A stretch of DNA of 24,357 nucleotides, from positions 1 to 24,357 of IMG/VR virus record IMGVR_UViG_3300048836_000570; one strand, given 5' to 3'. A model generated the notes under the pieces. It had not been told where the DNA came from. It ran no database searches and saw only the letters and a list, made by a program, of their open reading frames with translations. The first letter of the stretch is position 1, and the number at the start of each line of letters is the position of its first letter. The translations under genes were made by a program, and so were the position numbers. This stretch comes from a virus. Shown here piece after piece: positions 19,246 through 24,036 of this stretch.

Positions 19246-19593
19246 CTACCGGGGGTGCCGTCGAGCCCGACCCCGAGCGGCCTCGGCCGCTGACTTCTCC
19301 CGGTGGCACGGCTCCGGGTGGATCGGCGCCAGATTCGACACCTCGTCGGGGCCGCCCTCAGCGAGCGGGACCACGTGATCCACCACCGTCGCACCCGGCA
19401 GGCTGCACACGTGGCAGACACCACGGTGGGCCCGGATCACCTTGGCGTTGCGGGCCTGGAGCTTCCGGCCCGACATGGCGTCAGGCCGGCGCTGCTCCCG
19501 GCCGGCCCACGCCGGGCGGACATGAACCGGGCACGGCTGATCGAGCACGCAGCCCGTCACCGCACACACCGCCGGGGCACGATGACGAGCCAT
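19246..19593 (-). CDS. HNH endonuclease beside terminase (115 aa)
   Basis: The ATG at 19593 has AGGAGG seven bases upstream. Residues 60-97 give a complete HNH pattern: C60-x2-C63 (VCHVCS), D72-H73 ('VVDHVVPLAEGG'), N87 ('VSNLAPIHPEPCH') and C96-H97. The N-terminus has more cysteines (C10, C15, C21, then H24: 'CPVHVRP') that could form another zinc site. Small HNH proteins next to terminase genes are required for cos cutting in HK97-type phages (HK97 gp74), so a role in packaging is likely. The C-terminus is basic (ARGRARRHPR). Confidence 0.9.
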   Translation of the reverse strand: MARHRAPAVCAVTGCVLDQPCPVHVRPAWAGREQRRPDAMSGRKLQARNAKVIRAHRGVCHVCSLPGATVVDHVVPLAEGGPDEVSNLAPIHPEPCHREKSAAEAARGRARRHPR

Positions 19594-19648
19594 CCGGCCA
19601 CCTCCTGCCCACAACGGGAAGAGCCGCCCCGGTTCACCAGGACGGCCC

Positions 19649-19678
19649 ATTAAACAGAAGTATGCACGTTCGGGTGAA
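19649..19678 (-). promoter_or_regulatory. Possible promoter ahead of HNH and terminase genes
   Basis: In the 100-bp gap between the resolvase and HNH genes, the minus strand reads TTCACC (19678-19673), an 18-base spacer and TTTAAT (19654-19649). The AT content here is clearly higher than in the surroundings. The boxes fit a sigma-70-type pattern loosely. A late or packaging promoter is plausible, as this is the only real gap between the early cluster and HNH. Confidence 0.35.
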
Positions 19679-19693
19679 CATGGTGGTGGATGG

Positions 19694-20152
19694 TCAGCGG
19701 ATCTCGTCAGCTGGAGGGTTGATGAGGTAGTCGTACGCCCGCTCCAGGAGGTCGGGGTCGTCCCGCAGGAACCCGATCCCGATGTTGCAGTGCATGCACA
19801 GCAACCCTCTCGCCTCGCCTGACTCATGGTCGTGGTCGAGGTGGAGAACTTGGTCGGCGTCGGGTGGGCAGTCGCAGATGGCACAACGGTTCTGTTGCGC
19901 CTCGGTCAGCGCCCTCAGCTGCTCGCGGCTGAAGTTGTACTTGTGGCCTCGCCGCTCCTGGATCAGCACCCGAGTCCGCTCCGCACGAAGCGATTCGACC
20001 AGCTCCACCGCAGCCCGGACCTTCGCCAACCTCGACCCCGGGCGAGCGTTCAGGACAGCCAGCTCGTCCTGGATGGTCCGACACCGCCTGCACAGGTGGT
20101 AGCCCTCGAACTGGGGCTCCGGCAGCGTCCTCCCGCAGCGATTGCACTTCAA
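19694..20152 (-). CDS. Recombination endonuclease VII-like protein (152 aa)
   Basis: The start is TTG at 20152, forming TTGA with the previous stop; a GAAAGGGAAG ribosome site precedes it and no ATG or GTG is available near the motif. The N-terminus has a C-x2-C...C-x2-C zinc knuckle (C3, C6, C21, C24). The catalytic part starts at C90-x2-C93 ('RCAICDC'), then 'LHLDHDHESGEARGLLCMHC' (residues 103-122) with the D-H-D-H motif, followed by 'NIGIGFLRDDPDLLERAYDYL', the endonuclease VII (T4 gp49) signature. Such enzymes resolve Holliday junctions and branched DNA before packaging; here it lies beside the packaging module. Confidence 0.93.
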   Translation of the reverse strand: MKCNRCGRTLPEPQFEGYHLCRRCRTIQDELAVLNARPGSRLAKVRAAVELVESLRAERTRVLIQERRGHKYNFSREQLRALTEAQQNRCAICDCPPDADQVLHLDHDHESGEARGLLCMHCNIGIGFLRDDPDLLERAYDYLINPPADEIR

Positions 20153-20847
20153 CTCGTCCGCTTCCCTTTCTTCTTGCCTCGCGCATGGATCTCTAGCCGG
20201 GCACGCTCCATCATCCCCGCCGTCACGCGGTCACCGCGGTGACGGCGCTCGACCAGCCAGGTGGGCGGCTCGCCGCCCAACTCCTTCGAGGCCTGACCGC
20301 ACCAACGGCAGAGGCCCTTGTACCAGGCGGATCCGTTCGGTCTGCGAGACACGGGCTCGCAGTACTTGTTGTCTTTCCAGCAAGAGCGGCACCAGTCGTC
20401 ACCGGCAGTGGGCACCAGGATCTCGGAGGTCAGATGCTCGACGGCGTATGGGGCTGTGGTCTTGACCATCCGTGAGAGCAGCACCTGGAGCTGCTCGACC
20501 TCGCGGCGCAGCCGCCGGTAGTCACCCGCTGCCCGGTCACCGCCCACGGCGGCGTTGCCGGTGGGATCGGACGGCCCGGCGAGCAGTTCGCCAGTGCAGA
20601 GCAGGCCCTCCCGGTCGCACTCGACGGTCGTGCGCTCGTGCGTCCAGCACCACGCCGAGGGGCCGTCACCGGAGCCCCGCCGCGGCGCCTGGGGCTGGCC
20701 CGACATTCCGTCGCGCATCACGTGCAGCACAGCGGGGAGCTTGAGCGAAAGCTGCCGGGCCTGTTCGATCTCGTCGGCCAACTGCAGCACGAGCTCCTGG
20801 TCTCCCTCGGCTAGATGTTGTCGGGACTCGGTCGAGATCCAGGTCAT
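20149..20847 (-). CDS. Cys-rich, probably zinc-binding protein of unknown function (232 aa)
   Basis: The ATG at 20847 overlaps the previous stop by four bases (ATGA). The N-terminal 45 residues look helical (LVLQLADEIEQARQLSLKL). A first Cys group is at C67-W-T-H70, C77 and C84. A short charged coiled segment follows (DYRRLRREVEQLQVLLSRMV, 109-128). A second group has C153-x2-C156, C163 and C180-x2-C183 ('WCRSCWKDNKYCEP', 'GLCRWCGQ'), suggesting a zinc ribbon. The C-terminus is very basic (HARGKKKGKRTS), consistent with nucleic-acid binding. Its neighbours are nucleases. The family is not recognised; a DNA-processing accessory or regulator is possible. Confidence 0.75.
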   Translation of the reverse strand: MTWISTESRQHLAEGDQELVLQLADEIEQARQLSLKLPAVLHVMRDGMSGQPQAPRRGSGDGPSAWCWTHERTTVECDREGLLCTGELLAGPSDPTGNAAVGGDRAAGDYRRLRREVEQLQVLLSRMVKTTAPYAVEHLTSEILVPTAGDDWCRSCWKDNKYCEPVSRRPNGSAWYKGLCRWCGQASKELGGEPPTWLVERRHRGDRVTAGMMERARLEIHARGKKKGKRTS

Positions 20848-21908
20848 GTGCTCGGGTCCTCCGCGGTTGAAGCTGCAGCAAGCGTTCGGTCGGGTGGTGG
20901 GTCTGGGGTGCCGCCTGACGGCGGCTCCCGAAGCGAGCCGTGCCCGACCTGACCGAACCCGACAGGGCCGTTCCGAGCCGGACCGAGCAGGGCCGAGCCG
21001 AGCCCAGCCGGGCCGAGCCCAGCCGAGCCAGGACCCGAGCCAGTTCCGAGCCGGGACCGAGCCGGTTCCGGACCGAGTTGCGCGCTACGCGAGGGAGGAA
21101 CCGGCTCTGGACCCTGCTCTGAGCCGGTTCCGACGCTGCTTGGTACCGGCTCTGAGCCGGTACCGGTACCGGCTCTGGTACCGGCTGGTACCGGCTCTGG
21201 TACCGGCTCGGAACCGGCTCCCTGGGCGGTCTGGAACGGCCGGCCGCCCGGCGGGCACTGGGGCGCCACACCGGGCTCTGGGGGCGGCAGGAGGCGCATG
21301 CCAGCCTCGGCAGGGGTGCGCTCGCCCTTGTGCTGGTTGCAGCCTCGGCAGGACGTGACGACGTTCTCGAGCGTGTTGTCGCCGTCGGGGTCGATGTGGT
21401 CGTAGGTGAAGCCGTCGGCGGAGGTGTGGTCCGACATGGTGACCCGGAACGCGCAGTACCGGCAGTAGCCGCGGTCGCGTCTCCGGATCTGCTCCTTAAG
21501 GGTGGACAGCTTCTTGAGGCGGCGTTTGCGGTTCGCCTTGAACGCCTTGGCTGGGTCGGTCTTGTCGTCCCGCCGCGGGTTGTGGTCGTTCCAGTTGTGC
21601 ACGCAGTACTCGCCCGGCTCGAGCTGCTCGAACTCGGCGAGGCAGTCCTCGCAGGATCCGATCGTTGTGTGGTCGTGCCACAGCTTCACGGCCACCAGGC
21701 GCTTGATGGCCTTGTTCTGTCGGGCCCGAGTGTCGAGGTAGGCCGAGGTGAACATCGATCGGAGCCGCCCGGGCTTGATGACCCCGTCGGTCTCGGCCTG
21801 CGAGCACGACAGGTTGGCCACCACCCAGAGCGTGAACGCGTCCTGGGAGTCGAGCTCGATGATCTTGTCGTTGGCGAGCAGTTCGGAGTCGCCTCTCCAC
21901 CACTGCAT
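20844..21908 (-). CDS. Replication-initiator-like N-terminus fused to HNH nuclease with repetitive tail (354 aa)
   Basis: The ATG at 21908 overlaps the previous stop (TGATG). Residues 1-110 ('WWRGDSELLANDKIIEL' to 'YCVHNWNDHNPRRDD', in part) have the 'KI..L....A..LW......DG.I...' and 'VH.W..HNP' signatures of winged-helix N-termini in phage replisome organizers. Residues 149-190 form an HNH nuclease: C149-x2-C152, 'YDHIDPDGDNTLENVVTSC' with D170-H171 and N-x2-N, and C187-x2-C190 followed by 'NQHKG'. Residues about 220-354 are Gly/Pro-rich, repetitive (GSEPVPEPVP, GTGTGSEPVP) and probably unfolded. The DNA under this tail has short palindromes and repeats. It may be a mobile-type HNH insertion into a replication gene or a site-specific nicking initiator; both are inference. 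Confidence 0.85.
   Translation of the reverse strand: MQWWRGDSELLANDKIIELDSQDAFTLWVVANLSCSQAETDGVIKPGRLRSMFTSAYLDTRARQNKAIKRLVAVKLWHDHTTIGSCEDCLAEFEQLEPGEYCVHNWNDHNPRRDDKTDPAKAFKANRKRRLKKLSTLKEQIRRRDRGYCRYCAFRVTMSDHTSADGFTYDHIDPDGDNTLENVVTSCRGCNQHKGERTPAEAGMRLLPPPEPGVAPQCPPGGRPFQTAQGAGSEPVPEPVPAGTRAGTGTGSEPVPSSVGTGSEQGPEPVPPSRSAQLGPEPARSRLGTGSGPGSAGLGPAGLGSALLGPARNGPVGFGQVGHGSLREPPSGGTPDPPPDRTLAAASTAEDPST
20941..21070. repeat. Imperfect tandem CCGAGCC-type repeat tract inside coding sequence
   Basis: The plus strand reads many variants of CCGAGCC, CCGAGCCG and GCCGGG in a row (for example from 20975 to 21066), unlike the surrounding genes. It lies under the disordered tail of the HNH fusion protein. 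The tract may be a slippage-prone low-complexity region or hold binding sites. Confidence 0.6.
21142..21204. repeat. Six GGTACC palindromes in 63 bp
   Basis: GGTACC occurs at 21142, 21159, 21165, 21177, 21187 and 21199, separated by short CCGGCTCTG-like words. Between 21142 and 21164 it forms a perfect inverted repeat with 11-base arms (GGTACCGGCTC) around a single T. More CCGG(T/C)TC words flank it (21105-21136 and 21210-21222). It is coding for Gly-Thr/Pro-rich repeats. The dense dyads suggest an iteron-like binding array. Confidence 0.7.
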
Positions 21909-23448: not shown

Positions 23449-24036
23449 CAGCTGGCCTCGTTGCCGGGCAGGGCGAGGGTGACCTGCTTGCCGTCACGGG
23501 TGCGGGTGATGGTGCCCTTCGCGACGGCCTTGGTGAGGAGTTGGCGCAGGGCGCCGTAGCTGCAGTCGACGTCGGACGCGATCTCCTCGAGCGTGCCGGT
23601 GAGCGGCCCGTCGGCGAGTAGGTCGAGCAGCCGGGTCTGCGCTGAGTCCCTTCGGGCGCCCTTCGGCGTGGCGCGGCTGGGGCGGGCGGGTGGTCGGGTG
23701 GCCCGGTTGGTTGGGGCGGGTGGTGTGGGGGGGGCGGGGTGTTGGGGGGGGGGTGGGTGGGGGGGCCGGGGAGCCGCTGCTCTCCCCGGCCGTGTCGTGT
23801 AGCTGGTCCCCGTCGGCGATGGCCTCGCCCTCTCCGGTGTCGGTGGAGGACTCGGGGGCAGGGGCGGCGGACGTGGAGAGGCTGCCTCGGTGGCCCTTGT
23901 CGACCAGCGTGGCGATGACCGCGAGGGTGAAGCGCTGCTGGTGGGTCAGGTCGGTGAGGTCGGCTTCGGTGATGCTGGCGGTGATCTCGACTCCGGGCGC
24001 GGTGTAGGTGGCGTGGGCGTCGATGTGGCCGGTCAC
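23448..24036 (-). CDS. Winged-helix protein split by a frame change at C-tracts (about 195 aa if joined)
   Basis: The N-terminal frame starts at GTG 24036 (GTGA with the previous stop): TGHIDAHATYTAPGVEITAS, then helix 'DLTHQQRFTLAVIATLVDKG', then a Ser/Pro-rich linker. This frame runs through C7, C10 and C8 tracts (RNA sense) and ends at 23494 in meaningless Arg/His-rich sequence. A different frame, open to TGA at 23448-23450, encodes a clear winged-helix domain: 'QTRLLDLLADGPLTGTLEEI', 'ASDVDCSYGALRQLLTKAVA', 'KGTITRTRDGKQVTLAL'. That frame has no ATG, GTG or TTG in this region, so the two halves most likely belong to one gene joined by a +1 shift (or a one-base error) in the linker. The role is probably DNA binding or regulation. 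Confidence 0.7.
23727..23771. repeat. Homopolymer G cluster on the plus strand (G8, G10, G7 runs)
   Basis: Runs of 8 (23727-23734), 10 (23744-23753) and 7 (23759-23765) guanines sit close together, with further GGGG and GGG runs between and after them. In the gene above this is a poly-C/Pro linker. Such tracts are prone to slippage in replication and sequencing and can form a G-quadruplex on the plus strand. Confidence 0.85.

Follow-up and report, generated by a model that had tools for sequence, protein, structure and literature searches.

This locus poses the question of why a single viral gene joins an initiator-type N-terminus, an HNH nuclease domain and a long repetitive tail, and whether that tail matters as protein or as DNA. 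The window analysed here is the whole stretch of 24,357 nucleotides that makes up positions 1 to 24,357 of IMG/VR record IMGVR_UViG_3300048836_000570. We consider it probable that the gene encodes a replication initiator and that its own 3' third is the replication origin, as in lambda O, in a variant fused to an HNH domain. An origin inside the gene had been guessed at in the original prediction, and this guess is now supported by repeats that appear to be shaped at the DNA level and by their recurrence in relatives, this arrangement being present, with a recurrent G-rich repeat, in the corresponding gene of numerous actinobacterial viruses. The gene and its protein domains are as follows.

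20844-21908, minus strand: initiator-HNH fusion gene, 354 aa with an ATG start (open reading frame and profile matches)
21555-21908, minus strand: N-terminal initiator-type domain, residues 1-118 (phrog_2447/phrog_3926, HMM, model)
21276-21476, minus strand: HNH domain, residues 145-211 (Pfam HNH_5 and HNH, conserved residues, Cas9-HNH-like segment in the model)

The predicted combination of N-terminus, HNH domain and repetitive tail is indeed encoded in one minus-strand frame, whose 354 codons run uninterrupted to a stop that overlaps the start of the next gene as ATGA. Codon-position GC changes along the gene: GC3 is 0.93-0.95 over the first half and drops to 0.58-0.69 at the end, where GC at second positions climbs to 0.71-0.78. 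Single genes with the same order of parts occur in Gordonia phages (Bunker, Eyes, Hedwig, Kiko, Nyceirae), in Arthrobacter phages (Cole, Popper, Gusanita, QuinnAvery) and in Actinomyces phage xhp1; further fusion genes were found in IMG/VR contigs, and there are matches in Rhodococcus, Arthrobacter and Glutamicibacter genomes. Since these relatives have N-terminus and HNH in one uninterrupted gene, a frameshift artefact affecting two separate genes, a case raised together with the prediction, is ruled out. Nor did the idea of a one-off capture of the HNH domain in the window hold up, as an existing family, phrog_15463, has the same fusion. This family spans the fused genes at full length and is annotated only as 'HNH endonuclease', with no reference to replication or an origin. 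The window protein matches it over residues 27-211 (E 4.6e-24), with N-terminal domain and HNH in one gene, and judged from its sequence it is a divergent relative of this family. No close relatives of the window protein were found in viral_contigs, and the plasmid matches among those listed cover the HNH part alone. The Cys-rich C-terminus of the Gordonia/Arthrobacter members of phrog_15463 is missing in the window, Nyceirae and xhp1. A short Cys/His-rich C-terminal motif, CPxH...PCxxC, was seen in fused and some HNH-less relatives (L106, L137, L015, L002-L008) and is missing in the window protein.

Profile searches bear out the replication-type N-terminus that had been proposed. It matches phrog_2447 (E 1.7e-7) and phrog_3926 (E 2.4e-7), both annotated 'replication initiation protein', and an HMM made from HNH-less relatives only recognises it at E 6e-15; as the families matched are replication families, an origin of this part in some non-replication family fell away. 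By homology, the gene therefore has the initiator-related N-terminal domain of the lambda O type, with origin binding as its putative role. All 27 members scanned match phrog_2447, and some additionally match O-like, replisome-organizer, primosomal or DnaT families. Among relatives that share this N-terminus without an HNH, those of Shoya, Ribeye and Zitch carry the annotation 'replication initiation protein', and those of Raleigh and Darolandstone are unnamed or called 'mucin-2'. In the predicted structure of residues 1-218 (mean pLDDT 82) the N-terminal domain is mostly helical with short strands; a PDB fold search with this model gave no significant match covering the domain, so that the 'winged-helix-like' character suggested earlier is plausible but unproven. 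The model of one HNH-less relative contains two confident domains with a low-confidence linker between them; a PDB fold search with it returned no significant solved structure, and replisome organizers are among its neighbours in a comparison with predicted viral structures. In three complete fused genomes, the gene is the only initiator-like ORF found. Most likely, the gene product is a DNA-replication initiator protein with a built-in HNH domain.

The HNH domain itself matches Pfam HNH_5 (8.7e-7) and HNH (3.8e-6), both past the cut-off, and C149/C152, D170/H171, N182 and C187/C190/N191 are invariant in an eight-sequence alignment. With the zinc cysteines and the catalytic D-H and N residues of the HNH superfamily present, nuclease activity is predicted. 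The best PDB fold matches of the window model are Cas9-type HNH domains, none of them at E 0.001 or better.

Beyond this domain, the protein continues for 143 residues (212-354) in a repetitive tail rich in Gly, Pro, Ser and Arg. The Gly/Pro-rich character had been recognised before, and we now read the tail mainly as DNA, in view of half-sites in both orientations and in all three frames. Its elements are listed here.

21037-21220, both orientations: putative iterons, 12 half-sites GAGCCGGTNCC of 11 bp, 9 of them exact and all with at most one mismatch (sequence and shuffles)
21154-21175, no strand assigned: 22-bp perfect dyad GAGCCGGTACC/GGTACCGGCTC, formed by two half-sites (sequence)
20953-21032, no strand assigned: tract with a 5/10/20-bp period and G2 rather than G3 runs, putative second origin element (lag signals)

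Neighbouring half-sites in this array, which together occupy all three reading frames, are mostly 10-12 bp apart. The window contains 21 matches to GAGCCGGTNCC as against 6.8 +/- 2.4 in shuffles (largest 13), and 12 of the 21 fall within 184 bp. Not one of 500 synonymous and 500 codon-order shuffles of the tail reached 12 half-sites, the excess over the protein alone being only about two-fold because synonymous shuffles, which keep the repetitive protein, average 6.7. Iteron-like repeats inside the initiator gene, a further feature of the lambda O type, are thus present and non-random, and their role as binding sites is putative. At lag-5, lag-10 and lag-20, the window has its strongest signal in the tract, whose cleanest 5-bp stretch (20992-21029) adjoins the half-site array. 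Taken together, and in line with the drop in GC3, these results make it most likely that the tail repeats form a DNA element whose sequence is shaped as DNA rather than as a protein feature. CG-alternation before the tract was dropped as a candidate element, being found in 5/9 of the window's group and near background elsewhere.

The relatives comprised 116 genes, or 82 after removal of near-copies (67 HNH-less, 9 with the window's HNH type and 6 with that of Nyceirae/xhp1); lag score, domain cut-offs and controls were our own choices. A lag-5 tract in the tail above the 99th percentile of controls, which were equal-length segments out of the same loci, recurs in 76% of the 82 non-redundant relatives, a percentage that, like the others given here, describes this sample since relatives were collected on the basis of their similarity to annotated members. 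Lags of 10, 15 and 20 go along with lag 5, and lags of 9, 18 and 27 do not. Read on the coding strand, the repeat unit is for the most part CCCNN where HNH is absent and, where it is fused, GGGNN or a mixed 5/6-bp G3 repeat, the G3/C3 triplet being nearly fixed while the two spacer bases vary. Four spaced G3 runs are found in 69 of 82 tails versus about 0.5% of control segments, and a G3-repeat tract in 13 of the 15 fused genes, the window having instead a 5-bp period with G2 runs. In 59 of 62 genes, no more than 1% of synonymous resamplings attained the period actually seen. All five complete genomes (Shoya, Nyceirae, xhp1, Popper, Raleigh) have their strongest lag-5 tract in this gene; GC-skew extremes were not informative as an origin marker. 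In genes without HNH, the tract is preceded by dyads and repeats, which are most frequent 80-20 bp ahead of it, and is followed by 20 bp with 56% AT, compared with about 36% in the surroundings; according to the model of one HNH-less relative, dyads, tract and AT-rich patch sit in the low-confidence linker between the two folded domains.

As a separate observation, G3 runs are on the template strand when HNH is absent and on the coding strand when it is fused, a single gene departing from this in the relaxed pattern; the link between G3 strand and HNH is suggestive only, because few independent events underlie it. The window's own tail has no G3 runs or G3 G-quadruplex and no AT-rich patch (AT at most 0.37 per 30 nt), and beyond the HNH the protein has only repetitive sequence, with no recognisable C-terminal (helicase-loader-recruiting) domain and without the C-termini, helical or Cys-rich, that relatives have. 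On sequence grounds, this copy is a divergent one, devoid of G3 runs, AT-rich patch and a recognisable C-terminal domain. The strongest G-quadruplex-type score in the window lies at 23727-23776, outside the initiator gene.

If the gene carries its own origin, the 11-bp half-sites and the 22-bp dyad in its DNA would be the binding sites of the N-terminal domain, and the 5-bp-period tract would serve as a second origin element for strand opening or loading. In most relatives, the tract would be a G3 repeat able to form a G-quadruplex on one strand, and the protein tail might act as a flexible linker whose sequence is mostly dictated by the DNA. More speculatively, the HNH domain, set between DNA-binding domain and linker, might act on the origin DNA, and origin nicking is a possible form of this action.

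A special form of this explanation, in which the HNH cuts one strand at the in-gene origin and thereby starts, or switches to, rolling-circle replication, seems to us conceivable but rather unlikely. It would fit with HNH residues conserved in all fused relatives, with the position of the domain next to the DNA-binding domain, and with its closest solved relatives, the Cas9-type HNH domains, which cut a single strand. However, origin elements of this kind are also present in relatives devoid of HNH, which means that cutting cannot be a general requirement; a cleavage site could not be recognised, and HNH enzymes are also capable of double-strand breaks. We also regard as unlikely the wider proposition that a broad group of actinobacteriophages shares an in-gene origin of iterons and a conserved G-quadruplex-capable G3 repeat, on opposite strands in fused and HNH-less genes, and that the HNH nicks this origin in the fused branch.

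Could the repeats instead be a matter of the protein, namely a Pro/Gly-rich linker extended by replication slippage and free of any origin function? GC-rich slippage-prone repeats and Pro/Gly linkers are common, and the cyclic peptide encoded by a perfect 5-bp repeat is identical in all frames. Frame use alone therefore does not exclude a low-complexity protein tail, and frame use of the perfect CCCGA tracts was dropped as proof of DNA-level selection. We nevertheless find this explanation quite unlikely, as it is at odds with half-sites in mixed orientations and with dyads, with a period that is lost on synonymous resampling and a triplet that is kept while spacers vary, and with a tract that is unique in the genome. 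Moreover, the peptide is Pro-rich in HNH-less and Gly-rich in fused proteins, which corresponds to a G strand on opposite strands.

That the initiator gene has picked up a homing-type HNH domain which plays no part in replication is very doubtful. HNH genes are common mobile elements, and the fused genes do not form one group in the N-domain tree, in which the window is the longest branch, so that the number of HNH gains is not fixed by it. Against such a capture, domain position and catalytic residues are kept across divergent phages of several host genera, and no close relatives were seen with and without HNH at the same site. An origin-directed weapon like ICP1 Odn, in which an initiator DNA-binding domain steers a nuclease to the origins of competing phages or satellites, has the same design of initiator-type DNA-binding part and nuclease (PMC8263062) but is highly improbable here, since the gene itself carries the repeats and the weapon would hit its own genome, since the three complete fused genomes are without a second initiator-like ORF, and since the gene is located in the early/replication region.

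The genomic surroundings bear on possible partners of the proposed initiator; two neighbouring genes are of note.

20149-20847, minus strand: next gene, 232 aa, Cys-rich, without family match (Pfam/PHROG search)
19694-20152, minus strand: endonuclease VII-like gene (Pfam 3.3e-22)

Downstream of the initiator gene follow the 232-aa gene, the endonuclease VII-like gene, another HNH gene and the terminase genes. As a guess, the 232-aa neighbour might possibly be a partner of the initiator; it has no homologues among the relatives' loci compared. No helicase-loader gene was recognised near the gene within the 24-kb virus fragment, and as the record is a fragment of this size, partner genes may lie outside it. 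The relatives, too, have this gene towards the end of the early/replication region; a resolvase gene often follows it, and beyond the genome ends come the packaging genes. In the window, a stretch of 2.7 kb upstream of the terminase genes (19246-21908) holds three genes of the HNH/endonuclease VII type. Elsewhere in the window, at 23449-24035 on the minus strand, an N-terminal frame beginning with MTGHIDAHATYTAPGVEITASITEAD and an HTH-like C-terminal part ending in EEIASDVDCSYGALRQLLTKAVAKGTITRTRDGKQVTLALPGNEAS before the stop are in different frames flanking a long G run (about 23748-23757), and this split could be an assembly error, a phase-variable tract or a programmed frameshift.

In the full-text literature outside subscription papers and preprints, we found no description of an origin in this family or of its tract, and the same accessible literature yielded no report of mapped lytic origins for these actinobacteriophages. 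Given a sequence rule that singles out one gene and, within it, a tract of 30-50 bp, the origin could be tested directly in dozens of phage isolates, with new plasmid origins for actinobacteria as a possible yield. Starting replication with an initiator that contains its own nuclease would be unusual, and a conserved G-quadruplex-type tract within a coding region would be a new origin element.

Origins within or near initiator genes have precedents: lambdoid origins lie in the middle of gene O (PMC7466680), and in RepA mycobacteriophages, with another initiator type, an origin was suggested within or beside the initiator gene (PMC7157519). The window's gene shares with lambda O and ori-lambda an initiator-type N-terminus and repeats inside the initiator gene (PMC7466680), and HNH-less relatives resemble them further in having an AT-rich flank and, past the linker, another folded domain, their element order being that of lambdoid origins with the exception of the tract (PMC7466680). 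Unlike lambda O, the window has a fused HNH and the extra 5-bp-period (mostly G3) tract, and we do not assign it to the lambda O type because its copy has neither the AT-rich flank nor the recruiting domain. ICP1 Odn (PMC8263062) likewise combines an initiator-type DNA-binding domain with a nuclease, but it attacks the origin of another element, its nuclease is of the GIY-YIG type rather than HNH, and the Odn gene is not an origin. Actinobacteriophage members of PHROG 15463 (for example Gordonia phages Eyes and Nyceirae, Actinomyces phage xhp1) have N-domain, HNH and tail in one gene as the window does, which differs from them by the absence of G3 runs and of the conserved C-terminus. Members of PHROG 2447 (Arthrobacter phage Shoya, Gordonia phages Ribeye and Zitch) have no HNH, carry C3 instead of G3 on the coding strand and possess a helical C-terminal domain, but they share the N-terminal domain with the window's protein, and their repeats and tract occupy the corresponding portion of the gene.
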